A stretch of 64,000 nucleotides of DNA. Source: Bradyrhizobium sp. CCBAU 53351 (GTDB lineage: Bacteria; Pseudomonadota; Alphaproteobacteria; Rhizobiales; Xanthobacteraceae). The notes beneath the pieces are model-generated. The model was not told the origin of the DNA. It saw only the letters and a program-made list of their open reading frames with translations, and did not search any database. The DNA lies in assembly GCF_015291745.1 (NCBI RefSeq), contig NZ_CP030059.1, forward strand, positions 6,165,501 through 6,229,500, written 5' to 3'. Each line of letters opens with the position of its first letter. Position 1 is the first letter of the stretch. Of this stretch, positions 25,781-44,467 are shown one piece after another. Position numbers and translations under genes: made by a program.

Positions 25781-26317
25781 ATGCTCAAGACGATCATCCT
25801 GCTCACCGACACCGTGCAACAGCAGCAGCCGCTGGCCAATCTGCTCCGCGAGCATAATCGCGACCTCGTCTTCTGCTCGGCGCTGCGCGCATCGGACCTC
25901 AGTGCCATCGACCCTGACGTGCTGAGTGAGGCACGGCTGGTTTCGTTTGCCGCCGACGTCGCCATGCACGAAAAATTCCTGCTCAGGCTCGGCTATGGTG
26001 CCTACAAATTCTACGCCACGCCGACACAATATCCGGGCCTGCCGTCGGCGCCCGACGAGAGCGAGGACGATCCGCACTGCTTCTCCGTGATCGCGCAGTC
26101 GATGACGATCTGGCCGGATTTCAAGAAGGTGGTCGGCCTGGAAACGGTCACGATCCCAGATGGCACCGCTCCTGCCGAGCGCGAGCGGCTGGTGTTCTCC
26201 CGCCTCGCCCATCTGTTCTGGGGCATGTCGCACATGATCGCCGGCGAGGCGACGGACCTCCCCGGGATCATCGGATCCGGCGGCAGCCAGCGTCCGACGC
26301 TCGCGATGATGAACTGA
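25781..26317 (+). CDS. Degenerate formyltransferase-like protein
   Basis: 178 aa. The core SEARLVSFAADVAMHEKFLLRLGYGAYKFYATPTQYPG matches formyltransferase-family proteins that normally read LGYGAYNFHPGPPxYPG at this place. The catalytic Asn and His of the N-x-H motif are replaced by Lys76 and Tyr78, and the usual VDAGPIV region is missing, so formyl transfer is unlikely. The end (RLAHLFWGMSHMIA) also fits the family. Stop 26317 is one base from the convergent CoA-transferase stop. Probably co-transcribed with the HAD and glycosyltransferase genes; role unknown. Confidence 0.65.
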   Translation: MLKTIILLTDTVQQQQPLANLLREHNRDLVFCSALRASDLSAIDPDVLSEARLVSFAADVAMHEKFLLRLGYGAYKFYATPTQYPGLPSAPDESEDDPHCFSVIAQSMTIWPDFKKVVGLETVTIPDGTAPAERERLVFSRLAHLFWGMSHMIAGEATDLPGIIGSGGSQRPTLAMMN

Positions 26318-26318
26318 G

Positions 26319-27575
26319 CTAACGCACGGAGGCGCGAAGCTGCGCCGACAGAGCGTCGCGGTGCTCGGGCGCGGCGATCGCGATCATGCGGCGTGCCCGC
26401 TCGGCAAAGCCGGAGCCGCGCAATTCCGCGATGCCCCATTCGGTGACGATGGCGTCGACATCCGCGCGTGGCGTCGTCACCGTCTCGACATCGGCGACGA
26501 TCCGGCTGGTCCCGTCGGGCGCCGTGGCGGGCAGCGCGATGATCGCTCGTCCGCCGGGCGACGCGTTGGCGCCGCGCACGAAGTCGAGCTGCCCGCCGAT
26601 CGCGCCGATCGCAACGCCATTCAGCGTCTCGGAATTGACGCTGCCGTCGAGCCCGACCTGCAGCGCCGAGTTGATCGCGACCAGGCGATTGATCCGCGCC
26701 AGCACGTCCTGGCCGTGCGTGTAGGACGTCGGTCGCACCGATACCGCCGCGTTCTCGTGCACGAAGCGATAGAGCCGTTGCGTACCGATCACCTGATTGG
26801 TGACCGTAATTCCGGCATCGATCCCCTTCTCCGCATTCGTCACCGCGCCGCGTTCGATCAGATCGACGACGGCATCGTTGATCAGGCCGGAATGGATACC
26901 GAGATTGCGCAGGTGGGATAGCGAGGACAGGATCGCGTCAGGAATACGGCCGACACCGCACTGCAGCGTGCTGCCGTCGGCGATCAGGCTTGCGGCATGG
27001 GCGGCAATCCGACGCGAGACGTCATCGAGCGGCGGTGAGACCAGTTCAACGGGAGGCCGGCGCGCGGTCACGCGCAGATGGATCGGCACCTCGGCGGGCC
27101 ATTCCGCTCCAAACGTGAACGGCGCATCCGGGTTGATCTCGGCGATGATGAGACGCGCGCCGCGCGCGGCGTCGATGACATAGTCGTTCGACAGGCTGGC
27201 GCTCAAGCGGCCGTCACCGGCTTCGGCAAGCTGCACCAGAACGACATCAGCCCTGTGGCGTCGCGCGGCGAAGTCGGCGCAGAAGGCGCTGTAGTTGCTC
27301 GGGATCACATCGAGCCGCCCTGCCCTGGCGAGCCGCCGCGCATTGCCGATCACGCCGTAGCTCTGGAACGCCACGTTGGGGGCGCAAGCCACCGGGAACG
27401 TGTCGGAAAAGATCGGCCCGACCATCATGCGGAAGGCCGGAAGTCGGGCGGCCTGCTGCATCAGCGCCTGCGTCAGGGTAATCGGCTCCGCCGTCGCCTG
27501 CCCGCAGACGACGAGATCGCCCTCGCGGACCAGGCCGGAGAGATCGATCGGCGCCGAAGGTTCGGGGATCGCCAT
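26319..27575 (-). CDS. Acetyl-CoA hydrolase/transferase (ACH1/RipA-type) family protein
   Basis: 418 aa CoA-transferase family I. Moves CoA between acyl donors and a carboxylate. The likely catalytic glutamate is in GLDGSVNSETLNG (about 308-320); conserved nearby are GGQLDFVRGANASPGGRAIIALP and VTEWGIAELRG. Members include 4-hydroxybutyrate CoA-transferases and Yersinia RipA, an itaconate CoA-transferase. It starts with ATG 27575, one base after the acyl-CoA ligase stop, as the last gene of the TRAP operon. Confidence 0.92.
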   Translation of the reverse strand: MAIPEPSAPIDLSGLVREGDLVVCGQATAEPITLTQALMQQAARLPAFRMMVGPIFSDTFPVACAPNVAFQSYGVIGNARRLARAGRLDVIPSNYSAFCADFAARRHRADVVLVQLAEAGDGRLSASLSNDYVIDAARGARLIIAEINPDAPFTFGAEWPAEVPIHLRVTARRPPVELVSPPLDDVSRRIAAHAASLIADGSTLQCGVGRIPDAILSSLSHLRNLGIHSGLINDAVVDLIERGAVTNAEKGIDAGITVTNQVIGTQRLYRFVHENAAVSVRPTSYTHGQDVLARINRLVAINSALQVGLDGSVNSETLNGVAIGAIGGQLDFVRGANASPGGRAIIALPATAPDGTSRIVADVETVTTPRADVDAIVTEWGIAELRGSGFAERARRMIAIAAPEHRDALSAQLRASVR

Positions 27576-27576
27576 C

Positions 27577-29130
27577 TCAGCCCATCGGCGTGAGGCGCTT
27601 GGAGGACTCAGCCAGCAACGTGCGCAGCTCGGTCTTCACAATCTTGCCGTAGCTGTTCTTGGGAAGCTCAGCGGTGAAGTAATAATGCTTCGGCCGCTTG
27701 AAGCGCGCGATCCACGCATTGCAGACCTGATCGAGCTCGTCTCGCGTGACTGCCTTGCCCGCGACGGGAACGACGACCGCCACGACCTCCTCGCCCCATT
27801 CCGGATGCGGCCGGCCGATCACCGAGACTTCGGCGACGGCCTCGTGCCGCAGCAACACCTCCTCGACCTCGCGCGGATAGATGTTGGTGCCGCCGGAGAT
27901 GATGACGTCCTTGGAGCGGTCCTTCAGCGTGAGGAAGCCGTCGGCATCGAAGGCGCCCATGTCGCCGGTGTAGAGCCAGCCATCGCGCAACGTGTTCGCG
28001 GTCGCCTCCGGATTCTGCCAGTAGCCGGACATCACGGTATCGCCGCGCACGATGATTTCGCCGATCTCGCCCGCGGCAACATCGCGTCCGGTCTCGTCCA
28101 CGGTGCGCACCTGCACGACGCCTTGGGCAATGCCGACCGAGGCGAGGCGCTCCTCGTACCGAGGATGACCGGCGGCCGTATGCATGCGCTTCGGCAAGTA
28201 GGTGATGGTCATCGGCGTCTCGCCCTGGCCATAGATCTGCGCCAGCTTCGGGCCGAACACGCCCAGCGCCGCCTTGCAATCGGCGACATACATGGGGCCG
28301 CCGCCATAGATGATGGTCTTCAATCCCGGTGTGGTTGCACCCGCCGCCTGCGCCGCGACCGTCAGGCGCCGCACCATGGTGGGCGCGGCGAAGAAGGAGA
28401 TGTTCTCGCGCTTCGCCGTCAGGTCCAGAATTTCGTCCGACTCGAAGCGGCCGCTCTCCGGAATGATCTGCGCGCCCATGCCTAGCACATGCGGCACCAT
28501 ATAAAGACCTGACCCATGCGACATCGGGGCGGCGTGCAGCAGCGCCTCGCCCGGGACGATCGGATTGATCTCGGCGAGGTAGCTCAGCGACATCGCCAAC
28601 AGATTGCGATGGCTGAGTACGGCGCCCTTGGGCCGGCCGGTGGTGCCGCTGGTGTAGAAGATCCAGGCGGGATCGGTGATGGCGACATCGCCGATAGCGA
28701 TGCCATCGGCTTTTTCCAGCGCGCGGTGCTCGCCCGAGCCGATCTCGACGATGTGCGGCTTGACCGTCGCGAGCGCCAACGCTTCGGAGGCAACCCCCGC
28801 CATGTCTTCGGTCACGAACACGAGCGCGGCGCCGGAATTGTCGAGAATGAACGCAACCTCGCGCGGATGCAGTTTTGCGTTGATGGGAACGGCGACCAGG
28901 CCCGCATGCCAGCAGGCATAGAGGCAGGCGACATAGTCCGGCACGTTCTTCATCAGCAGCGCGACGCGATCGCCCTTGGCGAGGCCGAGGCGTTGCCGCA
29001 GCGCGCCCGCGAGCGATGCCACCGTCGCGGCGAGCCGGCCGTAATCGGCGACCGGCGTCAGACCCTTGAGCAGGGCCGGCGCGGAGGCGTCCGCTTTGGC
29101 GGCACGCAGCAGATGATGAGCGAGGTTCAC
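27577..29130 (-). CDS. AMP-dependent acyl-CoA synthetase
   Basis: 517 aa from GTG 29130, which has GGGGG eight bases upstream; the longer frame above is rejected. ANL motifs: FYTSGTTGRPKGA (about 161-173), IYGQGETPM, YTGDMGAFDADGFLTLKDRSKDVIISGG, NIYPREVEEVL and the catalytic lysine in NSYGKIVKTEL. It lies 23 bases after the acyl-CoA dehydrogenase gene, in the divergent dicarboxylate-type cluster. Substrate not readable. Confidence 0.94.
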   Translation of the reverse strand: MNLAHHLLRAAKADASAPALLKGLTPVADYGRLAATVASLAGALRQRLGLAKGDRVALLMKNVPDYVACLYACWHAGLVAVPINAKLHPREVAFILDNSGAALVFVTEDMAGVASEALALATVKPHIVEIGSGEHRALEKADGIAIGDVAITDPAWIFYTSGTTGRPKGAVLSHRNLLAMSLSYLAEINPIVPGEALLHAAPMSHGSGLYMVPHVLGMGAQIIPESGRFESDEILDLTAKRENISFFAAPTMVRRLTVAAQAAGATTPGLKTIIYGGGPMYVADCKAALGVFGPKLAQIYGQGETPMTITYLPKRMHTAAGHPRYEERLASVGIAQGVVQVRTVDETGRDVAAGEIGEIIVRGDTVMSGYWQNPEATANTLRDGWLYTGDMGAFDADGFLTLKDRSKDVIISGGTNIYPREVEEVLLRHEAVAEVSVIGRPHPEWGEEVVAVVVPVAGKAVTRDELDQVCNAWIARFKRPKHYYFTAELPKNSYGKIVKTELRTLLAESSKRLTPMG

Positions 29131-29153
29131 TGTGATCCCCCTGAAGGCTAAGC

Positions 29154-30320
29154 CTAATACGACTTGGCGAGGCCCAGCACCTTTTCCGCAATGAAGCTGA
29201 GCGCGAGCTGCGGGCTGACCGGCGCGATGCGCGGGATCAGCACTTCGCGCAGATAACGCTCGACGTGGAACTCCTTGGCATAACCGAAACCGCCATGGGT
29301 CATTACGGCCTGCTCGCAAGCGTGGTAGCCGGCTTCACCGGCGAAATACTTCGCAGCATTGGCGCCGGCGCCGCAGGGCAGGCCCTTGTCGTACTGCCAG
29401 GCCGCCTGCATCACCATCAGCCAGGCCGCCTCCAGCTCGACCCAATTCACGGCAAGCGGATGCTGGATGCCCTGGTTCTTGCCGATCGGACGGTTGAACA
29501 CGACCCGCGTCTTGGCGTATTCGGTCGCGCGCGACAGCGCCAGCTTGCCGAGGCCGACCGCTTCCGCCGCGATCAGGATGCGCTCGGGGTTCATGCCTTC
29601 AAGGATGTACTGAAAACCCTTGCCTTCTTCGCCGATCCGATCCTCCATCGGAATTTCAAAGTCCTCGAAGAACAGCTCGTTGGAATCGACGATCTTGCGG
29701 CCCATCTTCTCGATCTCGTGGACCTTGATCCTGTTGCGGTCGAAATCGGTGTAGAACAGGCTGAGGCCGTGGGTCGGCGAGCGCACCTCCTCCAGCGGCG
29801 TGGTGCGCGCCAGCAGCAGGATCTTGTGCGCGACCTGCGCGGTCGAGATCCACACTTTCTGGCCGTTGACGATGTAACGGTCGTTCTTGGCGACCGCCCG
29901 CGTCTTGAGCTGCGTGGTGTTGAGGCCGGTGTTGGGCTCGGTGACGGCAAAGCACGCCTTCTCGCGGCCCTCGACCATCGGCGGCAGCATGCGCTTGCGC
30001 TGCGCCTCGGTGCCGAACACGACGACGGGATTGAGACCGAACACGTTGATGTGCACCGCGGAGGCGCCGGACATGCCGGCCCCGGATTCCGCGATGGTGC
30101 GCATCATGATCGCAGCTTCGGTGATGCCGAGCCCCGAGCCGCCATACTCCTCGGGCACGCAGATGCCCAGCCAGCCGGCGTCCGCCAGCGCCTTGTGGAA
30201 ATCGTGCGGGAAGCCGCCGTCGTGGTCCTTCTTCAGCCAATAGGCATCCGGAAAGCCTTCGCAGATTTTTGCGATGGCATCGCGAATGGCTTCCTGCTGA
30301 TCGGTGAGCGCGAAATCCAT
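29154..30320 (-). CDS. Acyl-CoA dehydrogenase
   Basis: 388 aa FAD enzyme, from ATG 30320 with AAGGAG eight bases upstream. Full domain order: N-terminal helical part, middle domain with CFAVTEPNTGLNTTQLKTRAV (about 139-159) and WISTAQVAHKILLLAR, then C-terminal RVVFNRPIGKNQGIQHPLA and MTHGGFGYAKEFHVERYLREVLIPRIAPVS. The Pseudomonas itaconate operon also holds an acyl-CoA dehydrogenase. Here it might act on a methylsuccinyl- or related CoA ester, but this is inference. Confidence 0.95.
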   Translation of the reverse strand: MDFALTDQQEAIRDAIAKICEGFPDAYWLKKDHDGGFPHDFHKALADAGWLGICVPEEYGGSGLGITEAAIMMRTIAESGAGMSGASAVHINVFGLNPVVVFGTEAQRKRMLPPMVEGREKACFAVTEPNTGLNTTQLKTRAVAKNDRYIVNGQKVWISTAQVAHKILLLARTTPLEEVRSPTHGLSLFYTDFDRNRIKVHEIEKMGRKIVDSNELFFEDFEIPMEDRIGEEGKGFQYILEGMNPERILIAAEAVGLGKLALSRATEYAKTRVVFNRPIGKNQGIQHPLAVNWVELEAAWLMVMQAAWQYDKGLPCGAGANAAKYFAGEAGYHACEQAVMTHGGFGYAKEFHVERYLREVLIPRIAPVSPQLALSFIAEKVLGLAKSY

Positions 30321-30358
30321 GTTGCTTGATCTCCTTCTTGGAAGCCGCGAGCTCGTTC

Positions 30359-31648
30359 CTAGCGCCCCATCTGCGAGGGCAGCCAGAGGATGATAGACGG
30401 AAACGCCACCAAAATCGCGATCGCGATCAGATGCGCGATGAAATGCGGGAAGGTGCCGTGGAACACTTCCGCCACCGGCCGCTTGGCATAGCGGGCGACG
30501 ATGAAGCAGTTGAGGCCCACGGGCGGCGTGATCATGCCGACCTCGGCGGTGACGATCTTGATGACGCCGAACCAGATCGGATCGAAGCCGAGCGCCTTGA
30601 TCAGCGGCAGCACGATCGGCACGGTCAGCACCAGGATCGCGATCTGGTCCATGAACGAGCCGAGCACGATGTAGCCGAACAGGATCAGCGTGATGATCAC
30701 CCAGCGCGAGGTCTGCAGCGAACCGATCCAGGCGACGAGATCCTGCGTCACATGGGTGAGCGTGAAGAAATAGCCGAAGATCGAGGCGCCCACGAGGATC
30801 GTCACGATCATGCAGGTGCCGTGGCAGGCGCTGAGCAGCGCCTTGTACAGCGATCCCGGCGTCACCCTCCCCTTGGCGATGGCCAGCAGCAGCGCACCCG
30901 CAGCCCCAAGTGCGGAGGCTTCCGTCGGCGTCGCCACGCCGAGATAGATCGTGCCGGTGACGAGCGAGAACAGCAGCGCCATCGGCCCGACCTGCCACAG
31001 CAGCGAAAAACGCTCGCGCCAGGACACGGGCTCGATGCGCGGCGCCCGCGACGGATCCTGCCAGACCAGGAAGTAGATCGTCGCCATGATGGTGGCGGTG
31101 ACGAGCGCTGCCGGAATGATGCCGCCGATCAGGAGCTGCCCGATATTGACCTCCGCGAGCAGGCCGAAGATCACCAGCGCCACGCTGGGCGGGATCAACA
31201 TCGCCAGTGTGCCCGAGATCGCCACGACGCCTGCCGCCATCTTCGGCTCATAGCCCTGGCGGATCATGGCCGGAAGACTGGTCGACGACAGCGTCGCGGC
31301 CGATGCCGTCGAGGTGCCGCAGATCGCCCCAAAGCCGGCTCCGGCCAGAGCGGTCGCCATGCCGAGCCCGCCGGGGATCCGGCCAACCCACGCGGAGGCC
31401 GTCTTGAACATGTCGTCGGCCACGCCGGACAGCAGCACGAGGTCCGCCATCAGCAGGAACATCGGGATGGTGATCAATTCATAGGACGACACCGTCGAGA
31501 GCGGCGCCGTCTGCAGAATGCCGAACAGCGTGCCGGTGCCGCCGACCATCAGCAGACCGACCGAGCCGGCGAATCCCATGGCGAAACCGACCGGCGTGCC
31601 GATCGCCAGCAGGACAAAAAGCAATCCAAGCACGAGGATGACTGTCAT
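30359..31648 (-). CDS. dctM: TRAP transporter large permease (DctM-type)
   Basis: 429 aa, about a dozen membrane spans. Permease of a tripartite ATP-independent periplasmic transporter for a carboxylate. DctM signatures: FLLMADLVLLSG, ICGTSTASAATLSS, PPSVALVIFG, then GMITPPVGLNCFIV. Its stop lies 38 bases before the acyl-CoA dehydrogenase start. Eleven bases after the dctQ stop, same strand. Confidence 0.95.
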   Translation of the reverse strand: MTVILVLGLLFVLLAIGTPVGFAMGFAGSVGLLMVGGTGTLFGILQTAPLSTVSSYELITIPMFLLMADLVLLSGVADDMFKTASAWVGRIPGGLGMATALAGAGFGAICGTSTASAATLSSTSLPAMIRQGYEPKMAAGVVAISGTLAMLIPPSVALVIFGLLAEVNIGQLLIGGIIPAALVTATIMATIYFLVWQDPSRAPRIEPVSWRERFSLLWQVGPMALLFSLVTGTIYLGVATPTEASALGAAGALLLAIAKGRVTPGSLYKALLSACHGTCMIVTILVGASIFGYFFTLTHVTQDLVAWIGSLQTSRWVIITLILFGYIVLGSFMDQIAILVLTVPIVLPLIKALGFDPIWFGVIKIVTAEVGMITPPVGLNCFIVARYAKRPVAEVFHGTFPHFIAHLIAIAILVAFPSIILWLPSQMGR

Positions 31649-31659
31649 CGCGGCCGCCG

Positions 31660-32214
31660 TTATTCGAAGGAATGGGCTTCGCCGGTCTCGTTGACAGGCG
31701 GCAGGGGAAACAGATCACGACCCGAGATGAGGCTGAGGACATTGCCGACGAGCTGCAGCGCCAGCCGCAGCACCAGGACGCCGCAGCCGAACGGCACCAG
31801 CGCGGCCGAGATCCAGGTCGGCCAGGCAATGGCGCCGGCCAGCACGTCTTGCTGCTCGTAATTCTCCAGCGCGCGCTCGAACCCGACCTTGCAGATCAAA
31901 GCGAAGACGAACAGGCCGGTGAGTGCGGTGACGATCTCCGACAGCCTCCGGCCCCCGGTGGGAAAGCGCGAGAGCAGGATGTCCACGCCGACATGCGCAT
32001 GCACGCGCAAGGTATCGGACAACGTCAGGAAGAACACGGCGGCCAGAAGGTAGAGCCCGATCAGGTCGTAGGTGAAGGAGAACGGGCTGTTCATGACGTA
32101 GCGCATGAACACGTCGGCCACCACCAAGGCCATGATCGCAAACAGAGCGACCGCGGCGATCACCGTCAGCGCGCGCTCCAATACGCCGAGCACGTCCGTC
32201 GCCCGCTTGATCAT
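31660..32214 (-). CDS. dctQ: TRAP transporter small permease (DctQ-type)
   Basis: 184 aa from ATG 32214 with GGGAG nearby; four predicted spans (about 9-35, 45-65, 87-110, 128-150). Connects the solute receptor to the large permease. Marker pattern: FMRYVMNSPFSFTYDLIGLYLLAAVFF. Lies between the receptor gene and dctM in the usual P-Q-M order. Confidence 0.92.
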   Translation of the reverse strand: MIKRATDVLGVLERALTVIAAVALFAIMALVVADVFMRYVMNSPFSFTYDLIGLYLLAAVFFLTLSDTLRVHAHVGVDILLSRFPTGGRRLSEIVTALTGLFVFALICKVGFERALENYEQQDVLAGAIAWPTWISAALVPFGCGVLVLRLALQLVGNVLSLISGRDLFPLPPVNETGEAHSFE

Positions 32215-32260
32215 CGCTCTCCCTTTCCGCTCGATCCTGTAGGCAGCGCCCCCTGCGGCG

Positions 32261-33289
32261 CTACTTCGCGCCACTCGCCGCGAGCAAGCCTTCGAACTCC
32301 TTCAGCGCGGCGGAAGCCTGCTTGCCGCGGCTGTCGAGCCCGGCTGCCCATTCCTGCGCGACGCCCTTGAGCTTCTCTTTCATCTCAGCACGCGTGGCAT
32401 CCGGGAGCGCGGTGAAGCCGATCCCCCCGTCCTTCATCTTCTGCCGTGTCGCGTCCTGCTCCTTGTCGACGTCGGCGCAGGCCTTCGGCGTGATTGCTTC
32501 CGACGCGGCGTCCATCGCCTTCTTCACATCGTCGGGCAGCTTGTCCCAGACCGATTGATTGATCGAGTAGGCAACGATGAAGCTGCCGAAGCTGACGCCG
32601 TCGGTCGCGTATTTGACGAGCTTGTCGAGGCCATAGGCGACGACGCTGTCCATGGGGAACAGCAGCCCGTCCATCGTGCCGCGCGACAGCGATTCATAGG
32701 CATCGGGCGCGGCCATGCGCACCGGCACCGCGCCGAGCGTACGGACCGTCAGATCCTGCGCACCGCCGGTGGTGCGCAGCTTCAGCCCCTGCATGTCCTT
32801 GATGGTCTCGACCTTCGCCTTGGCGGTCCACACCTGATAGGGCGGCAGCACCACGGCCATCAGCAGCTTGATCTTGTTGGGCGCATATTCCTGCTTGGCG
32901 AGGATGCCTTCCCGCGCCGTTTTCCAATAGGCCAGCGTGCCCTGGCAACTGGTCTGGAAGGCGCCCGGCAATTGCGCGACCTCGGACAGCGGCATCTTGT
33001 CGGAGACGTAGGACGGCCCGATGTAGCCGATGTCGACCACGCCGGACTGCGTCAGCCGCAGCATGTCGGTGGCCTTGCCGATCTGCTGGTTCGGATAATG
33101 CGTGAACGTCACCGCGCCGTTGGTGCGCTTGGCGACATCGTCCATCCACGGCTTCAGCATCAGGCGGACGAGATAGTGGTCGGCGGGGAAGCTGTCGGCG
33201 ACCTTCAGCTCCAGCGCCTGCGCCGGCAATATCGAGACCGGCAGTGAGAATGCCAACGCGGCGGCCGCCCAGACCCAATTTCTCTTCAT
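32261..33289 (-). CDS. dctP: TRAP transporter solute-binding protein (DctP-type)
   Basis: 342 aa periplasmic receptor. Signal peptide (KRNWVWAAAALAFSLPVSILPAQA) about residues 2-25. Fold motifs YPNQQIGKATDMLRLTQSGVVDIGYIGPS and LKLRTTGGAQDLTVRTLGAVPV, where the Arg (LRT) is the usual carboxylate anchor. First gene of the minus-strand operon, divergent from the CaiB-type gene across a 223-base control region. Confidence 0.95.
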   Translation of the reverse strand: MKRNWVWAAAALAFSLPVSILPAQALELKVADSFPADHYLVRLMLKPWMDDVAKRTNGAVTFTHYPNQQIGKATDMLRLTQSGVVDIGYIGPSYVSDKMPLSEVAQLPGAFQTSCQGTLAYWKTAREGILAKQEYAPNKIKLLMAVVLPPYQVWTAKAKVETIKDMQGLKLRTTGGAQDLTVRTLGAVPVRMAAPDAYESLSRGTMDGLLFPMDSVVAYGLDKLVKYATDGVSFGSFIVAYSINQSVWDKLPDDVKKAMDAASEAITPKACADVDKEQDATRQKMKDGGIGFTALPDATRAEMKEKLKGVAQEWAAGLDSRGKQASAALKEFEGLLAASGAK

Positions 33290-33512
33290 TCGCTTTCTCC
33301 CTGACGCGCCCTCACGCCGACGGCGGCAGCCAATTTGCTGCCGGTCGCTTCGGCCTCGCTTCTTGCTTGAGAAGTTTGTACATATATGTGAATTTATATG
33401 TCAAGTATATGAACTAAGCATAGGCCTATGCGGCTCTTGGCGAAGCCTACGAATTGACATGCTCGTTTTCTGAACACTAACTCCACGTATATGAACTCTC
33501 ACGCGAGGCCTC
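33290..33512. promoter_or_regulatory. Divergent control region with repeated GTATATGAACT boxes
   Basis: Intergenic region between the TRAP operon (minus) and the CoA-transferase operon (plus). Direct repeats of GTATATGAACT at 33405-33415 and 33487-33497, with related CATATATGTGAA and TTATATGTCAA just upstream of the first. A possible sigma-70 -35 TTGACA lies at 33454-33459, with a weak -10 about 17 bases on. The second box is downstream of this promoter, as an operator would be. The IclR regulator at 36132 is the likely binder. Confidence 0.45.
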
Positions 33513-34715
33513 ATGGGACCGCTCGCCGGCTTCACCATTCTCGACCTGACCTCCGTGTTGATGGGCCCCTACGGCACACAGGTGCTGGCCGACATGGGGG
33601 CCGATATCATCAAGGTCGAAAGCCCCGAGGGCGACATCGTCCGCCAGATCGGTCCCGGCCGCACGCCCGGCATGGGCGGGATGTTCCTCAATGCCAATCG
33701 CGGCAAGCGCAGCATCGTGCTCGATCTCAAGAAGAAGGAAGGCCGCGACGCGCTGCTAAGACTGGCGAAGCGCGCCAATGCGCTGGTCTACAACGTGCGC
33801 CCGCAAGCCATGGCGCGGCTCGGCCTCGACTACGAGAGCCTCCGCGCGATCAACCCCGCGCTCGTCTATGTCGGTGCGTTCGGCTACGGCCAGTCCGGTC
33901 CCTACGCCGCAAAGCCCGCTTATGACGATCTGATCCAGGGCGCGGCGACCATCCCGACACTGCTGGCAGCCGCCGGCGACGGCACGCCGCGCTACGTCCC
34001 CGTCACCATCGCCGACCGCATCGTCGGGCTGATGATGGTCAATGCGATCATGGGCGGGCTGATGCACCAGCAGCGCACGGGGGTGGGCCAGCGCATCGAC
34101 GTGCCGATGTTCGAATCGATGGCGGAGTTCGTGCTGGTCGATCATCTCGGTGGCCTCACCTATGACCCGCCGCTCGACCATGGCGGCTATCCCCGCCTGC
34201 TGTCGCGCTACCGCCGGCCCTACAAGACCAGCGACGGCTATCTCTGCGTCCTCATCTACAACGACAAGCACTGGCGCAGCTTCTTCGAGGCGATCGGGCA
34301 GCCACATTTCCTCGATCAGCCGCGCTTCGCCAACCACGCCGCGCGCACCAAGCATATCGACGAGATCTACGCGGAGATCGGCCAGATCTTCACCACGCGC
34401 ACCACCGCGGAGTGGCGAGAGCTGCTGGAGCGCGCCGACATTCCGGTGATGCCGATGCACACGCTGGAGAGCATCCTGGACGATCCGCACCTCAATGCGG
34501 TCGACTTTTTCAAGACGGTGGACCACCCCGTTGAGGGACGCATCCGCCAGATGCGCGTACCCTCCACCTGGAGCGCAACCCAGCCGGAGCCAGCCGGTCC
34601 CGCGCCGACGCTCGGCCAGCACGGCCGCGACATCCTGCATGAGGCCGGCTTCTCGACTGAAGAGATCGACCAGCTCGCAGAGCAGAAGGCAGTTCACCTG
34701 GCGCCGCTGCCGTAA
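33513..34715 (+). CDS. CaiB/BaiF-type CoA-transferase (family III)
   Basis: 400 aa. Transfers CoA from a donor ester to a carboxylic acid. Family III signature: GFTILDLTSVLMGPYGTQVLADMGADIIKVE (about 6-36), and the segment PAYDDLIQGAA with the likely active-site Asp (138/139). It could act as the itaconate or mesaconate CoA-transferase of the pathway that follows. First gene of the plus-strand operon, 48 bases before the MaoC gene; start ATG 33513. Confidence 0.93.
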   Translation: MGPLAGFTILDLTSVLMGPYGTQVLADMGADIIKVESPEGDIVRQIGPGRTPGMGGMFLNANRGKRSIVLDLKKKEGRDALLRLAKRANALVYNVRPQAMARLGLDYESLRAINPALVYVGAFGYGQSGPYAAKPAYDDLIQGAATIPTLLAAAGDGTPRYVPVTIADRIVGLMMVNAIMGGLMHQQRTGVGQRIDVPMFESMAEFVLVDHLGGLTYDPPLDHGGYPRLLSRYRRPYKTSDGYLCVLIYNDKHWRSFFEAIGQPHFLDQPRFANHAARTKHIDEIYAEIGQIFTTRTTAEWRELLERADIPVMPMHTLESILDDPHLNAVDFFKTVDHPVEGRIRQMRVPSTWSATQPEPAGPAPTLGQHGRDILHEAGFSTEEIDQLAEQKAVHLAPLP

Positions 34716-34762
34716 GAAGCGGGCGGCGCCGGCAAAAATCGAGACACAGGGAGGAAACCGCG

Positions 34763-35215
34763 ATGGCCGGACTTTATTTCGAAGACTTTTCCGTAGGCCA
34801 GGAGTTCAGGCATCCGCTGACTCGGACCGTCACGGAGATGGACAACACCATGTTCAGCCTGCTGACGCTCAACCCGCAGCCGCTGCATATCGACGCGCAT
34901 TTCGCCGAAAAGACCGAGTTTGGGCAGCGCATTTTCAACAGCCTTTACACCCTCGGCATCATGATCGGCATGACGGTCTATGATACGACCATGGGCACCA
35001 CCGTTGCCAATCTCGGCATGACCGACGTCACGTTTCCAAAACCGGTCTTCCATGGCGACACCTTGCGGGCGACGACGAAGGTGCTTTCGTTGAGGGAATC
35101 CAAATCGCGCCCGAGAGCGGGTATCGTCGAGTTCGAGCACCACGCCTTGAACCAGAACGACGAGATCGTCGGAAAATGCCGCCGCATGGCGATGATGCAC
35201 AAGAGGCCGGTCTGA
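34763..35215 (+). CDS. MaoC-like (R)-specific hydratase
   Basis: 150 aa hot-dog-fold enoyl-CoA hydratase. The MaoC active-site stretch is LNPQPLHIDAHFAEKTEFGQRIFNSLYT (about 36-63). In the itaconate pathway an enzyme of this family adds water to itaconyl- or mesaconyl-CoA, giving citramalyl-CoA. A GGGAGG site precedes ATG 34763. Its TGA overlaps the next ATG. Confidence 0.93.
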   Translation: MAGLYFEDFSVGQEFRHPLTRTVTEMDNTMFSLLTLNPQPLHIDAHFAEKTEFGQRIFNSLYTLGIMIGMTVYDTTMGTTVANLGMTDVTFPKPVFHGDTLRATTKVLSLRESKSRPRAGIVEFEHHALNQNDEIVGKCRRMAMMHKRPV

Positions 35216-36066
35216 TGCGTTCGATGCTGTTCGTGCCGGGCGATTCCCCGCGCAAATTCGAGAAGGCGAGCAAGGGCAAGGCCGACGCGCTGATCATCGA
35301 CCTGGAGGATTCCGTCGTCGCCGAGAAGAAGCCGGAGGCGCGCACCCTGACGCTTTCGATGCTGAAGAGCCGCCCCGGCCCGCACCAGCTCTATGTCCGC
35401 GTCAACGCGCTCGACACCGGCATGACGCTGTCCGATCTCGCCGCGGTGCTGCCCGGCAAGCCCGACGGCATCGTACTGCCGAAATCGCAAGGCGGCGACG
35501 ACGTGCGGCACGTCGCAACCTGGCTCGAAGCGCTGGAAGCGGCATCCGGCATCGCGGCCGGCACGACGCGCATCGTCTGCGTGGCGACGGAGACGGCAAG
35601 CTCGATCTTCGGCCTCGGCAGCTACAAGGGCTGCTCCCCCCGCCTCGCCGGCCTGATGTGGGGCGCGGAAGACCTCTCGGCTTCGCTCGGCGCCACCGAG
35701 AAAGCCTCGGGTGGCGTGTTCCACAGCCCCTATCGCCTCGCCCGCGATCTCTGCCTGATGGCCGCGGCCGCGGCCGAGGTCGCGCCGATCGACACGGTCT
35801 ATACCGACATCGACAACCTCGCCGGCCTGGAAGCCGAAACGCGCGCCGCGCGGCGCGACGGTTTTTCCGCCAAGGCCCTGATCCATCCCAAGCATGTCGA
35901 TGTCGTCAACGCGGCGTTCGCGCCCACCGAGGCCGAACGGACCTGGGCGGAGAAGGTGATCGCGGCGTTCGCGAGCAACCCGAGTTCCGGCACGCTGCGG
36001 CTCGACGGCCAGATGATCGACAAGCCGCATCTTCGCGCCGCAAAGAAGATCCTCGGCCAGCCCTAG
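35215..36066 (+). CDS. HpcH/HpaI aldolase/citrate lyase family protein (CitE-like)
   Basis: 283 aa TIM-barrel CoA-ester lyase. N-terminal LFVPGDSPRKFEKASKGKADALIIDLEDSV is typical of CitE and malyl/citramalyl-CoA lyases; ETASSIFGLGSYKGC and WGAEDLSASLGA line the active site. Would cleave (S)-citramalyl-CoA to acetyl-CoA and pyruvate if the pathway proposal holds. Start ATG 35215 overlaps the maoC stop (TGATG), i.e. translational coupling. Confidence 0.93.
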   Translation: MRSMLFVPGDSPRKFEKASKGKADALIIDLEDSVVAEKKPEARTLTLSMLKSRPGPHQLYVRVNALDTGMTLSDLAAVLPGKPDGIVLPKSQGGDDVRHVATWLEALEAASGIAAGTTRIVCVATETASSIFGLGSYKGCSPRLAGLMWGAEDLSASLGATEKASGGVFHSPYRLARDLCLMAAAAAEVAPIDTVYTDIDNLAGLEAETRAARRDGFSAKALIHPKHVDVVNAAFAPTEAERTWAEKVIAAFASNPSSGTLRLDGQMIDKPHLRAAKKILGQP

Positions 36067-36067
36067 A

Positions 36068-36096
36068 GCCCAGTTCCGATGGAATCGGAACTGGGC
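36068..36096. repeat. Perfect hairpin repeat between citE-like and IclR genes
   Basis: Thirteen-base perfect arms GCCCAGTTCCGAT (36068-36080) and ATCGGAACTGGGC (36084-36096) with a three-base loop, followed by AAAACGCTCTAG. It begins one base past the CitE-like stop. The outer AGAG...CTCT resembles a common bradyrhizobial interspersed element. May serve as terminator before the iclR gene. Confidence 0.75.
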
Positions 36097-36131
36097 TTGA
36101 AAACGCTCTAGATCAGGACGCAAAGCCCGCC

Positions 36132-36872
36132 ATGATCGTTCGCCAAGCCGCAAACGTCCTGGAGATCATGGAATTCTTCGCGCAGGCGAGGAAGCCGGCG
36201 ACGCTTGCGGAGATCGCCGATCATTTCGGCTGGCCGCGCTCGTCGACCTTCAACCTTCTCACGACGCTCTCGGAGAAGGGCTACCTCTATGAGCCGCGGC
36301 CGCGCGCCGGCTTTTATCCGACGCCGCGCTGGCTGGCGATGGCGCGGATGATCTCGGAGGTCGAGCCCCTGCCGCAATGGACGCATCAACTGATCGCCGA
36401 TCTCTCCGCCGAGACCGGCGAGACCGCCTCGATCGTGGCGCCGGCCGGCGTGATGGCCGTGTTCATCGACGTCGTCGAATCTCAGGCTGCGATCCGTTAT
36501 TTCGCGACCATCGGCCATCGCGTGCCGATCCATGCAACGGCCAGCGGCCGCTCGTTGCTGCTGCAATATTCGCAGGAAGAGCGCGACTCCGTCTATCGCA
36601 AGATCGAGTTCAAGCAATACGGCTCGTCGACGCCGATCAGCATCGAGGCGGTCGAGACCGAGCTGCGCAACTCGATCGCGCGCGGTTACTGCCAGAGCTT
36701 TGGCGATTACAGCCGCGATCTCGCCGGCGCTGCGATCCCGTTGCCGGTCGGCGACCGCCGCCTCTCGGTCGTCGTCGCCGGCCCGGAATTCCGCATTGGT
36801 CCCAGGGTCGGCGAGGTCGCCGCGCTGATCGCGCGCACGGTCGATCGGCTGCGGCCGAAGGCGCCGGCTTGA
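36132..36872 (+). CDS. IclR family transcriptional regulator
   Basis: 246 aa from ATG 36132. N-terminal winged helix (KPATLAEIADHFGWPRSSTFNLLTTLSEKGYLY, about 18-50) and C-terminal IclR ligand domain (HATASGRSLLLQY, then AIPLPVGDRRLSVVVAG). The ligand is likely a pathway carboxylate or CoA ester. The plus-strand CoA genes precede it and the divergent boxes at 33405/33487 are its plausible targets. Confidence 0.92.
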   Translation: MIVRQAANVLEIMEFFAQARKPATLAEIADHFGWPRSSTFNLLTTLSEKGYLYEPRPRAGFYPTPRWLAMARMISEVEPLPQWTHQLIADLSAETGETASIVAPAGVMAVFIDVVESQAAIRYFATIGHRVPIHATASGRSLLLQYSQEERDSVYRKIEFKQYGSSTPISIEAVETELRNSIARGYCQSFGDYSRDLAGAAIPLPVGDRRLSVVVAGPEFRIGPRVGEVAALIARTVDRLRPKAPA

Positions 36873-37506: not shown

Positions 37507-38304
37507 CTACACGATCTTGATCGACATATCCGGCAAGCCTTCGAGCTTGCACAGCAGCACGTCGCCCTTCACGACGGGACCGACATTCTCCGGCGTGCCG
37601 GAATAGATGATGTCGCCGGCTTTCAACTCGAACGCTTCCGACAGCTTTGCGATCTGCTCGGCCACGCTCCAGATCATCTTGCTGAGATCCGAGTTCTGCT
37701 TGACCGTGCCGTTGACCGCCAGCGAGATCGCGCCCTTCTCGAAATGGCCGGTCTTGCTGGCGGGGTGAATCGGGCCGAGCACCGCGGCGTGGTCAAAGCT
37801 CTTGCCGATCTCCCAGGGCTTCTTCTCCGCGGCCATGCCGTTCTGAAGGTCGCGCCGGGTCATGTCGAGGCCGAGCGCGTAGCCATAGACGTGGTCGAGC
37901 GCCTTATCGACGGGGATATTGGTGCCGCCGGATTTCAGCGCAGCGACCAGCTCGACCTCGTGATGATAGTTCTTGGTCAGCGACGGATAGGGATGATCGG
38001 CAACCTCGCCGACCGCGACGTTCTGGATCGCGTCGGTCGGCTTCTGGAAGAAGAACGGCGGCTCGCGGTTCGGATCCGAGCCGCGCTCGATCGCGTGTGC
38101 GGCATAATTGCGCCCGATGCAGTAGATGCGCCGGACCTGGAACACCTCTTTCTCGCCGACGATCGGGATGGTCACCATCGGTACCGGAAAGATCGGCTTG
38201 GGTCCAGCCTGCGCTGCGGCCGGAACGACGTCGGCCATGGTTGCCGCGGTCGCGACGGCGGCAGTTGCAAGCAGATCGCGTCGCGTCGGTGAGGTCCGTT
38301 TCAT
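37507..38304 (-). CDS. Fumarylacetoacetate hydrolase family protein, Tat-exported
   Basis: 265 aa from ATG 38304, with GGAAGGGAG upstream. Twin-arginine signal SPTRRDLLATAAVATAATM (about 5-23), unusual for this normally cytosolic family. FAH core: RIYCIGRNYAAHAIE and NYHHEVELVAAL (metal ligands), GYALGLDMTRRDLQ, then the SGTPENVGPV end. It probably acts on a C-C bond of a diketo or hydroxy-keto acid in the periplasm. Neighbours give no clear pathway. Confidence 0.9.
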   Translation of the reverse strand: MKRTSPTRRDLLATAAVATAATMADVVPAAAQAGPKPIFPVPMVTIPIVGEKEVFQVRRIYCIGRNYAAHAIERGSDPNREPPFFFQKPTDAIQNVAVGEVADHPYPSLTKNYHHEVELVAALKSGGTNIPVDKALDHVYGYALGLDMTRRDLQNGMAAEKKPWEIGKSFDHAAVLGPIHPASKTGHFEKGAISLAVNGTVKQNSDLSKMIWSVAEQIAKLSEAFELKAGDIIYSGTPENVGPVVKGDVLLCKLEGLPDMSIKIV

Positions 38305-38414
38305 CTCGGGGCTCCCTTCCTTGTCGTTGGGCCGCTTCAGGCGCGCCGCTCCGGCTGATAGTCGATCTTCAGCGTGCCAGCAACAGGAACGCCGCGGTGC
38401 GGGCTTCAAACATC

Positions 38415-41490: not shown

Positions 41491-42705
41491 ATGAGAGGGC
41501 TTCTGGCCTGCGCCTTGCTCGCGGCCATGACATCGGCTGCCGTAACCACAGCCGCGACCGCGCAAGTCTCCGACGACGCGGTGCGGATCGGCGTGCTGAC
41601 GGATCTGTCGAGCTGGGGCCGTGACAATTCGGGGCCAGGCTCGGTCGAGGCGGCAAAGATGGCGGTGGAGGAATTCGGGCCGACCGTGCTCGGCAAGCCG
41701 ATCGAGATCATCAGCGCCGACCACCAGATGAAGACCGATGTCGGCGTGCAGATCGTGCGCGGCTGGTTCGACAACGGCAAGGTCGATGCCGTCGTCGACA
41801 TCCCCAATTCCGGCATCGCGATCGCCGTGCACAACATGGTGCGCGAGCGTAACAAGATCGCGCTGCTCTCCGGCCCCGGCGCGAGCTCGCTGACCGACGA
41901 GCTGTGCAGCCCCAACACCGTGCACTTCACCTACGACACCTATGCGCTGTCCAAGGTGACGGCCTCAGCCGTGATCAAGGAAGGCGGCAAGTCCTGGTAC
42001 TTCATCACCGCCGACTACGCCTTCGGCCAGCAGCTCGAGAAGGACGCGACGCGCTTCATCAATGAGATGGGCGGCAAGGTGCTCGGCGGCGTCAAGCATC
42101 CGACCAACACCGCGGACTTCTCGTCCTTTGCGCTGCAGGCGCAGAGCTCGAAAGCCGACGTCGTCGCCTTCGCCAATGCGGGCCAGGACACCGACAACGC
42201 CATCAAGCAATCCGGCGAGTTCGGCCTCGTGCAGGGCGGCCAGAAGCTGGTTGGCCTGCTGATGTTCGACACCGACGTGCACGCGGTCGGCCTCAAAGCC
42301 GCGCAAGGCACCTATATGACGACGGCGTCGTACTGGAACATGGACGAGGCGACGCGCGCCTGGTCGAAGAAGTTCTATGAGCGAACCAAGGTGATGCCGA
42401 CCATGATCCATACCGGCGTCTATGGCTCGGTCCTGCATTACCTGAAAGGCATCAAGGCCGCCGGCACCGACGATTCCGCCAAGGTGATGGCCAAGATGCG
42501 CGAGCTACCGATCGAGGATATCTTCGTCCACGGCGGCAAGTTGCGCGAGGACGGCCGCGTCATCCGCGACATGTATCTCGCCAAGGTGAAATCGCCCGAC
42601 CAATCGAAGGAACCGTGGGACTATCTGGACATCGTCAAGACCGTGAAGGGCGAGGACGCCTTCCGCCCGGTCTCCGAGTCCAAATGTCCGCTGCTGAAGA
42701 AGTGA
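41491..42705 (+). CDS. ABC transporter solute-binding protein (branched-chain amino acid type)
   Basis: 404 aa periplasmic receptor of the LivJ/amide-binding class. Signal peptide about 1-27 (LLACALLAAMTSAAVTTAATA). Body motifs: VRIGVLTDLSSWGRDNSGPGSVEAAKMAVEEFG, DIPNSGIAIAVHNMVRERNKIALLSGPGAS, FITADYAFGQQLEKDATRFI. No permease or ATPase genes accompany it, so it is an orphan receptor or pairs with a remote transporter. Followed seven bases later by the flavoprotein gene. Confidence 0.93.
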   Translation: MRGLLACALLAAMTSAAVTTAATAQVSDDAVRIGVLTDLSSWGRDNSGPGSVEAAKMAVEEFGPTVLGKPIEIISADHQMKTDVGVQIVRGWFDNGKVDAVVDIPNSGIAIAVHNMVRERNKIALLSGPGASSLTDELCSPNTVHFTYDTYALSKVTASAVIKEGGKSWYFITADYAFGQQLEKDATRFINEMGGKVLGGVKHPTNTADFSSFALQAQSSKADVVAFANAGQDTDNAIKQSGEFGLVQGGQKLVGLLMFDTDVHAVGLKAAQGTYMTTASYWNMDEATRAWSKKFYERTKVMPTMIHTGVYGSVLHYLKGIKAAGTDDSAKVMAKMRELPIEDIFVHGGKLREDGRVIRDMYLAKVKSPDQSKEPWDYLDIVKTVKGEDAFRPVSESKCPLLKK

Positions 42706-42712
42706 GGTCCAG

Positions 42713-44446
42713 ATGACAGGCAACGGGCATGGCGCAAGCGAAACCTACGAGTGCGATGTGCTCGTGGCCGGATCGGGCTGCTCCGGCATGTCGGCCGCGA
42801 TCACAGCCCGCTCCCGCGGCCTCGACGTCTTGATCGTCGAGAAGGAGCCGCGCTTCGGCGGCACCACCGCCCGCTCCGGAGGCTGGCTCTGGATTCCCGG
42901 CACCTCGCTGGCGAAGGCCTATGGCATCGCGGAAACGCCGGAGCAGGCCCGCACTTATTTGCGGCACGAAGCCGGCAACAATTTCGATGCGGAACGCGTC
43001 GATGCATTTCTCACGGCCGGCCCCGAGGCGGTCGATTTCTTCACCACCAAGACGGCGCTGCGCTTCGACATGCCGCTGGTGTTTCCGGACTATCACGCCG
43101 AGGCGCCCGGCGGCGCGCAAGGCGGTCGCTCCATGGTGACGCGTCCGTTCGACGGCCGCGAGCTCGGCGACCTCATCAAGTCGCTGGGCATGCCGCTGCC
43201 CGAGCTCACCGTGTTCGGCATGATGCTCGGAAGCGGCAAGGAGATCATCCACTTCATGCGCGTGACGAAGTCGCTGACCTCCGCGGTCTACGTCGCCAAA
43301 CGCCTGTCGCGACACCTGATGGACGTGCTGCGCTATGGCCGCGGCATGATGCTGACCAATGGCAATGCGCTTGCGGGGCGCCTTGCCAAATCCGCGCTCG
43401 ACCTGAAGATTCCGATGTGGCTGTCCTCGCCCGTGCGCGAGCTGACGGTCGAGAACGGTGCGGTCACCGGCGCCATCGTGTCGCGCGAGGGACGCGAAGT
43501 CCGCGTCTGCGCGCGACACGGCGTCGTACTCGCCTGCGGCGGTTTCCCGCACGACGTCGAGCGCCGCAAAAAGATGTTTCCGCACGCGCCGACCGGGAAC
43601 GAGCATTATTCGCCGGGGCCTACCGGCAACACCGGTGACGGCCTGCGTCTCGCTGAACGCGCCGGCGGCCATGTCGAGGACCGCCTGCCCAACGCGGCGG
43701 CCTGGGTGCCGGTGTCGCTGACGACGCGCAAGGACGGCTCGAAGGGCGTGATGCCGCATTTCATCGACCGCGCCAAGCCCGGCGTCATCGCGGTGATGCG
43801 CGACGGCAAGCGCTTTGCCAATGAGGGCAACTCCTATCACGACTTCGTCCAGGCCATGATCAAGGCGGCCAAGCCCGGCGAGGAGATCGCGGCCTATCTC
43901 GTCTGCGATCACAAGACGCTGCGCAAATATGGCCTCGGCTGCGTGCCGCCCTTCCCGATGCCGCTGGGTCATCACCTCGAGACCGGCTATCTCATGCGCG
44001 GCGATACGCTGGAGGCGCTGGCGGCGAAGACCGGCATCGATGCCAGGGCATTCGCCGAGACGGTCAGGCAGTTCAATGCGACCGCGCCGCAAGGTCATGA
44101 CGCCGCCTTCGGCAAGGGTTCGAAGGCCTATAACCGCTACCAGGGCGATGCGATGCACGGCCCGAATCCCTGCGTCGCGCCAATCGAGAACGGGCCGTTC
44201 TATGCCATCAAGATGGTGGTCGGCGACCTCGGCACCTATGCCGGCATCGTCACCGACGCGAATGCCCGGGCGCTCGATGCCGAGGGACGGGTGATTCCCG
44301 GGCTTTATGCCGCCGGCAACGACATGGCGAGCATCATGGGCGGCAATTATCCCGGCGCCGGTATCACGCTTGGGCCCGCGCTGACCTTCGGCTACATTGC
44401 CGGCCGGCATCTCGCCGACAGCGCCGCCAAGCGCGACGCGGCCTAA
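42713..44446 (+). CDS. FAD-dependent dehydrogenase, KstD-like
   Basis: 577 aa flavoprotein of the fumarate reductase/3-ketosteroid dehydrogenase superfamily. N-terminal dinucleotide fold VLVAGSGCSGMSAAITARSRGLDVLIVEKE (about 15-44) and the KstD-typical GGTTARSGGWLWIPG. The C-terminal FAD block is AGNDMASIMGGNYPGAGITLGPALTFGYIAGRHLA. It introduces or removes a double bond in an unknown, probably cyclic or carboxylic substrate. Same operon as the solute-binding protein and IclR gene. Confidence 0.92.
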   Translation: MTGNGHGASETYECDVLVAGSGCSGMSAAITARSRGLDVLIVEKEPRFGGTTARSGGWLWIPGTSLAKAYGIAETPEQARTYLRHEAGNNFDAERVDAFLTAGPEAVDFFTTKTALRFDMPLVFPDYHAEAPGGAQGGRSMVTRPFDGRELGDLIKSLGMPLPELTVFGMMLGSGKEIIHFMRVTKSLTSAVYVAKRLSRHLMDVLRYGRGMMLTNGNALAGRLAKSALDLKIPMWLSSPVRELTVENGAVTGAIVSREGREVRVCARHGVVLACGGFPHDVERRKKMFPHAPTGNEHYSPGPTGNTGDGLRLAERAGGHVEDRLPNAAAWVPVSLTTRKDGSKGVMPHFIDRAKPGVIAVMRDGKRFANEGNSYHDFVQAMIKAAKPGEEIAAYLVCDHKTLRKYGLGCVPPFPMPLGHHLETGYLMRGDTLEALAAKTGIDARAFAETVRQFNATAPQGHDAAFGKGSKAYNRYQGDAMHGPNPCVAPIENGPFYAIKMVVGDLGTYAGIVTDANARALDAEGRVIPGLYAAGNDMASIMGGNYPGAGITLGPALTFGYIAGRHLADSAAKRDAA

Positions 44447-44467
44447 AGCCAAGCGCATCGGAGGCGC

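Follow-up and report, generated by a model that had tools for sequence, protein, structure and literature searches.

A divergent Bradyrhizobium gene cluster predicted to take up a branched organic acid and degrade it through CoA intermediates

Introduction

Which compound is degraded by a gene cluster that joins a tripartite ATP-independent periplasmic (TRAP) transporter to a set of enzymes acting on coenzyme A (CoA) esters? The question is raised by positions 26319-36872 of a 64,000-nucleotide stretch of Bradyrhizobium sp. CCBAU 53351 (hereafter the window; contig NZ_CP030059.1, 6165501-6229500, within the 8.34-Mb genome), which a sequence-only reading had assigned to itaconate or a related five-carbon (C5) dicarboxylate. 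Our analysis suggests that the cluster probably imports and degrades a branched organic acid via CoA intermediates, and the succession of CoA activation, dehydrogenation, hydration and carbon-carbon cleavage predicted from the enzyme families is well supported and very probable. As for the acid itself, a six-carbon (C6) compound is the candidate that we tentatively favour, because related loci fit an acid of leucine or terpenoid type better than itaconate. No study of this cluster was found among the titles and abstract openings of open-licence PubMed Central (PMC) papers, and no title there describes a system for 3-methylglutarate catabolism, or one with a CitE-type 3-hydroxy-3-methylglutaryl-CoA (HMG-CoA) lyase, in Alphaproteobacteria.

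Results

The cluster consists of ten intact open reading frames in two divergent, operon-like runs, dctP-dctQ-dctM-acad-AMP-ligase-ctfI on the minus strand and caiB-maoC-citE-iclR on the plus strand, and the family class of all ten is backed by Pfam and NCBIfam profile searches. The TRAP, CaiB-type, MaoC-type, CitE-type, acyl-CoA dehydrogenase and IclR genes named in the sequence-only reading are all present as intact frames with the expected Pfam domains, but its list left out ctfI and the AMP-ligase gene. Start codons of acad, dctQ, the AMP-ligase gene, citE and iclR were chosen among in-frame alternatives, and with these the gaps are 1-46 bp in the minus run and 47 bp, a one-base overlap and 65 bp in the plus run.

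26319-27575, minus strand: ctfI, family I CoA-transferase (4-hydroxybutyrate CoA-transferase-like), 418 aa; Pfam AcetylCoA_hyd_C
27577-29130, minus strand: acyl-CoA ligase of the AMP-binding family, 517 aa, with GTG as the chosen start; Pfam AMP-binding
29154-30320, minus strand: acad, acyl-CoA dehydrogenase, 388 aa; Pfam and alignment
30359-31648, minus strand: dctM, TRAP large permease; TIGR00786 above cut-off
31660-32214, minus strand: dctQ, TRAP small permease; Pfam DctQ
32261-33289, minus strand: dctP, solute-binding protein of the TRAP system, of another type than the C4-dicarboxylate/IctP binders; NF037995 above cut-off
33377-33498, no strand: TATATG/CATATA repeats resembling operators, between the two divergent runs, putative regulator-binding sites; conservation in alignment
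33513-34715, plus strand: caiB, family III CoA-transferase, 400 aa; Pfam CoA_transf_3
34763-35215, plus strand: maoC, single-domain MaoC-type hydratase, 150 aa; best NCBIfam model RipB/Ich (below cut-off), Pfam MC_hydratase 62.5 bits
35215-36066, plus strand: citE, beta-hydroxyacyl-CoA lyase, HpcH_HpaI/CitE, 283 aa; Pfam, best NCBIfam model RipC/Ccl (below cut-off)
36132-36872, plus strand: iclR, IclR-family regulator, 246 aa; Pfam HTH_IclR and IclR_C

We propose that this IclR-linked divergent pair would serve the uptake and CoA-ester breakdown of a methyl-branched organic acid. The TRAP system would import the acid or its precursor, and CaiB, CtfI or both, aided by the AMP-ligase in some strains, would form the CoA ester; the acyl-CoA dehydrogenase would then desaturate the ester, MaoC would add water to give a tertiary alcohol, and CitE would split a carbon-carbon bond to yield acetyl-CoA and a keto acid.

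The hydratase and the lyase both find their best NCBIfam models in the Rip system, at scores that do not reach the cut-offs: MaoC has 134.7 bits against NF038241 (RipB/Ich; cut-off 340) and CitE 182.2 bits against NF038242 (RipC/Ccl; cut-off 375). In six-frame searches of the genome with the same models, MaoC scored 137.1 bits, the next match in the genome being 40.6, and CitE came out on top with 181.6 bits. MaoC carries an Asn-x4-His motif (NPQPLH), present in 118 of the 125 MaoC-type sequences extracted and common to the RipB cut-off member L216 and to the solved beta-methylmalyl-CoA dehydratase 8hgn (in its second domain); the seven sequences without it include three host-genome paralogs with Asp-x4-His. 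In CitE, R62, E126 and D153 align with the catalytic R64, E112 and D138 of mycobacterial Rv2498c, and M148, G150 and V195 are identical to the residues M133, G135 and V181 that contact the 3-methyl group in that enzyme, which cleaves both (S)-citramalyl-CoA and (R)-HMG-CoA (PMC6689899, in excerpt).

The candidate catalytic base of the acyl-CoA dehydrogenase (ACAD) is Glu246 (motif NPER), which aligns with a Glu of the Rhizobium BT03 protein annotated as isovaleryl-CoA dehydrogenase; other acyl-CoA dehydrogenases carry the base in a C-terminal stretch, which in the alignment holds no Glu here. Identity to the carboxylase-linked Rhizobium dehydrogenase is only 30%, and relatives at 60-76% share loci with MaoC/CitE in Frigidibacter, Diaphorobacter, Azoarcus and Sphingopyxis. 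A Palleronia plasmid (L325 7001-13845) has an ACAD relative (74%), an IclR gene and a TAXI-type TRAP system near an annotated acyclic terpene utilization protein AtuA. A Paracoccus saliphilus plasmid (L323 5758-12889) has a CoA transferase-ACAD-CaiB-DctQ-DctM-DctP run with a MaoC-type gene and no CitE annotated in the stretch; the genes for uptake and activation may there feed a different pathway. Among the activating enzymes, CaiB has the succinate-glutarate CoA-transferase model as its best NCBIfam match (229 bits, cut-off of 750 not reached), and none of the 25 NCBIfam matches listed for the AMP-ligase is above cut-off. Solved relatives of CtfI are a 4-hydroxybutyrate coenzyme A transferase (229.8 bits) and chain 3qli, 'Coenzyme A transferase' (195.8 bits), which we take to be Yersinia RipA.

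From 228 loci retrieved with MaoC, the best 80 were compared, a gene being scored as present at 70% identity or more; by title all belong to Bradyrhizobium or Rhodopseudomonas, save one 'Frankia' and one 'Bradyrhizobiaceae bacterium', and, because the loci were taken in order of similarity, the fractions should not be read as frequencies among species. A full type with both dctP and caiB accounts for 42 loci and a minimal type, with acad and maoC and neither dctP nor caiB, for 33; the other five (L095, L120, L125, L126, L127) have another form. Every full locus has iclR, 40 have ctfI (L071 and L078 are cut at that point by the contig end) and 23 have the AMP-ligase gene; among the minimal loci iclR is present in two, and ctfI and the AMP-ligase gene in none (0/33 each). 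The core of the cluster is acad-maoC-citE, with the transporter, the CoA-transferases and IclR variable around it: in these 33 of the 80 loci the core is kept without an adjoining CoA-transferase or transporter gene of these families, and in 31 of the 33 without iclR as well. Because some minimal and full loci share flanking genes (clusters c9, c13, c15 and c30), the genes for transport, activation and regulation appear to come and go around this core.

All ten families also occur together, in another gene order, on the conjugative plasmid pcai42C of Frigidibacter mobilis (L237, ~123-138 kb), which makes the set look like a functional unit, and the grouping is more than chance adjacency. Identities to the window are 49% for IclR, 59% for CaiB, 76% for ACAD, 42% for CtfI, 73% for MaoC, 64% for CitE, 33% for DctQ, 58% for DctM, 45% for DctP and ~50% for the ligase. 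The plasmid cluster has in addition a second CaiB, a major facilitator superfamily gene, another MaoC-type gene and a thiolase, and elsewhere pcai42C carries a dehydrogenase-carboxylase-hydratase-carboxyltransferase set with a TetR gene (L312 13153-19355).

The loss of caiB from the minimal form might be taken as proof that CoA transfer is dispensable, an argument weakened by a second CaiB (60-63% identity) found elsewhere in all 15 Bradyrhizobium and Rhodopseudomonas genomes searched, eight minimal and seven full, the window's included (the full-type locus L092 was outside this sample). This paralog is adjoined by thiolase-family genes in all nine loci examined (two in eight loci, one in L319; for example L322 6421-10572, near 3039089), and one such thiolase shares 53% identity with its counterpart in the Frigidibacter cluster. 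A search of the eight minimal genomes for a DctP match at E 1e-40, run without a positive control, found none.

The wider context of the hydratase was followed in 106 neighbourhoods, 92 rows with a MaoC at least 51% identical to that of the window (MaoC-A) and 14 with one below 51% (MaoC-B), ACAD orthologs being counted from 45% upwards; one Tistrella locus appears twice, as L179 and L243, and the MaoC-A rows thus stand for 91 loci. A CitE ortholog is found in 74 of the 92 rows, an ACAD ortholog in 32, a carboxylase in 18, a CaiB ortholog in 13, a gene like that of isovaleryl-CoA dehydrogenase (IVD) in 10, a CtfI ortholog in 9, a TRAP ortholog in 5 and an acetoacetate-CoA ligase in 3. By locus, acyl-CoA carboxylase genes are present in 17 of 91, with both subunits in 16 and a biotin-carboxylase match alone in L234; six of the 17 have a relative (at least 73%) of the annotated IVD nearby, and six have no CitE in the stretch. 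The MaoC-B group has no carboxylase in its 14 rows and holds the one RipB cut-off member. None of the curated models labels these carboxylases methylcrotonyl-specific; that reading is based on the adjoining dehydrogenase and the product name in the record.

Rhizobium BT03 and R. etli CFN42 have five-gene IVD-carboxyltransferase-carboxylase-MaoC-CitE runs (L236 4375-10286; L331 922-6831) with the function set of the mycobacterial accD1-accA1-fadE19-Rv2499c-citE operon (PMC3920632, PMC6689899, both in excerpt), and this Rhizobium-plasmid run is likely to be an (R)-HMG-CoA leucine route outside mycobacteria. Azoarcus provides the strongest single hint of a path from the dehydrogenase product to acetoacetate: there, an ACAD relative (61%) stands in a MaoC-CitE-ACAD-acetoacetate-CoA ligase run whose ligase scores 903 bits against TIGR01217 (cut-off 521). 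In a MaoC tree of 118 rows the carboxylase contexts lie on several branches, and L133 (MaoC 74%, carboxylase context, no adjoining CitE) falls inside the window's 27-row clade (support 100/97). In a CitE tree of 97 rows the window lies in a 23-row clade (support 100/93) that includes the four rows (L129, L130, L235 and L237) with a TRAP link but of a type other than the window's; all carboxylase- and acetoacetate-ligase-linked CitE rows are outside it.

The binding protein DctP matches NF037995 above cut-off and TIGR00787 below it (75 of 175 bits). The host genome has a canonical C4-dicarboxylate binder (L300; TIGR00787 325.7 bits) that matches the IctP/DctP structures 9ht3, 9dtl and 9dsy. Aligned through it, DctP has A36, a gap, R172, F211, S215 and V239 at the polar ligand positions K41, K94, R169, N209, N213 and Y236 of IctP (PMC12599236, in excerpt), and so keeps one of the six (Arg172), in an alignment of low identity where the gap may shift by a few residues. 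As most of these ligands are not kept, DctP is unlikely to bind itaconate in the manner of IctP. Of the 94 structure matches of DctP, the 60 listed do not include 9ht3, 9dtl or 9dsy; the nearest solved relatives among the matches listed are the TRAP binders 4p56, 7nqg, 5im2, 4n6d, 4pgn and 4nap, whose ligands we take to be mostly aromatic acids.

Between dctP and caiB, CATATA/TATATG repeats at 33381, 33395, 33406 and 33488 are conserved across 43 aligned full-type sequences, that of the window included; full-type regions have on average 3.4 TATATG matches (both strands), minimal-type regions 0.06. Because iclR shows the same distribution between the two types, these repeats are probably IclR operators. 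Against a strict link, one of the two minimal loci that retain iclR (L077) has no such element, and the other (L121) has a single related one.

On the flanks, the adjoining frame 25781-26317 gave no result in a PADLOC scan. Downstream, a fumarylacetoacetate-hydrolase-family protein with a Tat-like leader as judged by eye (37507-38409) is encoded in loci of either type, full or minimal (cluster c9), and a further run at 41491-45262 encodes an ABC-type solute-binding protein, an FAD-dependent oxidoreductase (NF004789 above cut-off) and another IclR-type regulator, the first two of which recur in related loci (clusters c13 and c19).

Discussion

Among the candidate substrates we place C6 branched diacids first, as a tentative preference, followed by C5 diacids, which are possible if rather unlikely, and larger acids, which appear improbable. 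The favoured C6 route would run from 3-methylglutaryl-CoA through 3-methylglutaconyl-CoA and (R)-HMG-CoA to acetoacetate and acetyl-CoA, and it is preferred because relatives of MaoC adjoin carboxylase or acetoacetate-CoA ligase genes, as in the mycobacterial leucine route. In culture media of bean-nodulating rhizobia, 3-methylglutarate was seen with R. etli CFN42 and R. leucaenae CFN299, and HMG with the latter and with R. tropici CIAT 899 (PMC6630823, in excerpt). HMG and mevalonate have been seen in Acinetobacter (PMC4213383, in excerpt). With more reserve, we suggest that the locus could be a catabolic system not described before, for C6 branched acids that rhizobia or plants release (3-methylglutarate, 3-methylglutaconate or HMG). 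In it, the TRAP transporter would take up the acid, two CoA-transferases would activate it, and a dehydrogenase dedicated to 3-methylglutaryl-CoA, a MaoC hydratase with (R) specificity and an HMG-CoA lyase of the CitE type would degrade it. The whole would form a detachable cassette on a conserved three-enzyme core, shared with a conjugative plasmid, and the (R)-HMG-CoA route could then be common in Alphaproteobacteria.

Several observations weigh against the C6 proposal. The window cluster has no carboxylase, thiolase or acetoacetate-activating gene, and 43 of the 92 MaoC-A rows have neither a carboxylase nor an ACAD ortholog nearby. The dehydrogenase is not tied to this lyase chemistry either, since ACAD relatives (67-75%) also stand next to a gene annotated as CoA transferase where the nearest 7 kb hold no annotated CitE. 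In DctP, a second carboxylate clamp like that of IctP is missing, which is a poor fit to a simple C6 diacid too. At CitE position 148, the window's clade has Met in 21 rows, Leu in one and Ile in one, and the 12 carboxylase-linked CitE rows (11 loci) have Thr or Ser, so that the substrate may have shifted; Thr is the commonest residue overall (55/98). This contrast is one change on one branch, suggestive and not statistical proof, and as such it counts against a simple transfer of the leucine-route substrate to the window CitE. Leucine breakdown as the sole main job of the locus can be rejected, since the host genome has two other clusters with relatives of IVD, carboxylase and HMG-CoA lyase.

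The strongest competitor to the C6 route would have itaconate, mesaconate or methylsuccinate activated by CaiB or CtfI and processed by a methylsuccinyl-CoA dehydrogenase, a mesaconyl/itaconyl-CoA hydratase and an (S)-citramalyl-CoA lyase to pyruvate and acetyl-CoA. Its best arguments are the Rip models that head the searches for MaoC and CitE, the Asn-x4-His motif shared with L216 and 8hgn, the three 3-methyl contacts shared with Rv2498c, and a known methylsuccinate route that combines an ACAD with a CoA-transferase (PMC12290011). However, MaoC, CitE and CaiB all remain below equivalog cut-offs, no MmgE/PrpD gene is found among the ten (the rest of the genome was not searched for one), the core persists without transferase or transporter, and the relatives are linked to carboxylase and acetoacetate ligase genes. 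The DctP residues and the absence of the three IctP/DctP structures from the matches listed also speak against C5 diacids, and itaconate is not used by one Bradyrhizobium species, whose cluster status is not known, according to an excerpt of PMC10708946. On the favourable side again, CtfI resembles the presumed RipA chain, and the equivalent of position 148 is hydrophobic also in chain 3qll, which we take to be RipC. Of the earlier itaconate assignment, uptake, CoA-ester catabolism, a regulator and the enzyme classes stand; its end products, acetyl-CoA and pyruvate, may yet be right on the evidence of Rv2498c, but the carboxylase and acetoacetate-CoA ligase contexts point to HMG-CoA and acetoacetate. 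As Rv2498c performs both cleavages, each of the two leading readings could be true in part.

Least probable of the three is a TRAP-imported hydrophobic or aromatic mono-acid or terpenoid acid, from which ACAD, MaoC and CitE would remove an acetyl unit at the level of a 3-substituted glutaryl-CoA or 2-substituted succinyl-CoA to leave a longer keto acid. This could account for a DctP that lacks the dicarboxylate clamp and has other TRAP binders as its nearest solved relatives among those listed, for three different CoA-activating enzymes in one cluster, for ACAD relatives near AtuA and near carboxylase-hydratase sets, and for the thiolases of the Frigidibacter cluster and the CaiB paralog. However, Pfam and NCBIfam show no ring-opening, oxygenase or further beta-oxidation genes in the window cluster, and the minimal form keeps just the three core enzymes at the locus.

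The cluster is thus a useful but fairly ordinary catabolic locus, and the analysis corrects a natural but weak itaconate annotation. The statement that this trait is little described in soil bacteria was too strong, as PMC12290011 names Cupriavidus necator, Paraburkholderia xenovorans and, in the legend of its Fig. 1, Mesorhizobium qingshengii. Should the C6 proposal be true, rhizobia would have an extra dicarboxylate niche, the CitE-type (R)-HMG-CoA route reported from mycobacteria (as unprecedented, in Mycobacterium tuberculosis) would appear to be spread through Alphaproteobacteria, and CitE position 148 would be a testable marker of specificity.

Compared with known systems, the cluster resembles the Yersinia-type RipABC in its family I CoA-transferase, short MaoC-type hydratase and lyase with RipC as best model, but it falls far under the NF038241 and NF038242 cut-offs, is not one contiguous operon and has CaiB, ACAD, ligase and TRAP genes in addition. 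With the itaconate-methylsuccinate cluster of P. aeruginosa and Cupriavidus necator it shares a CoA-transferase, an acyl-CoA dehydrogenase, a hydratase and a CitE-type lyase (PMC12290011, PMC12599236, both in excerpt), and with that of P. aeruginosa a linked TRAP transporter, likeness to Ict/Ich/Ccl/Mcd being judged via curated models, solved structures and papers. The P. aeruginosa cluster includes MmgE/PrpD (PMC12290011), unlike the ten genes here, and DctP lacks most of the ligand residues of its IctPQM counterpart. The mycobacterial leucine operon has a carboxylase and a TetR regulator, whereas the window has no carboxylase at the locus and has TRAP, CaiB, CtfI, AMP-ligase and IclR genes. 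In both, the hydratase gene adjoins citE (PMC6689899, PMC3920632, both in excerpt), and the two lyases are identical in their catalytic Arg, Glu and Asp and in all three 3-methyl contacts.

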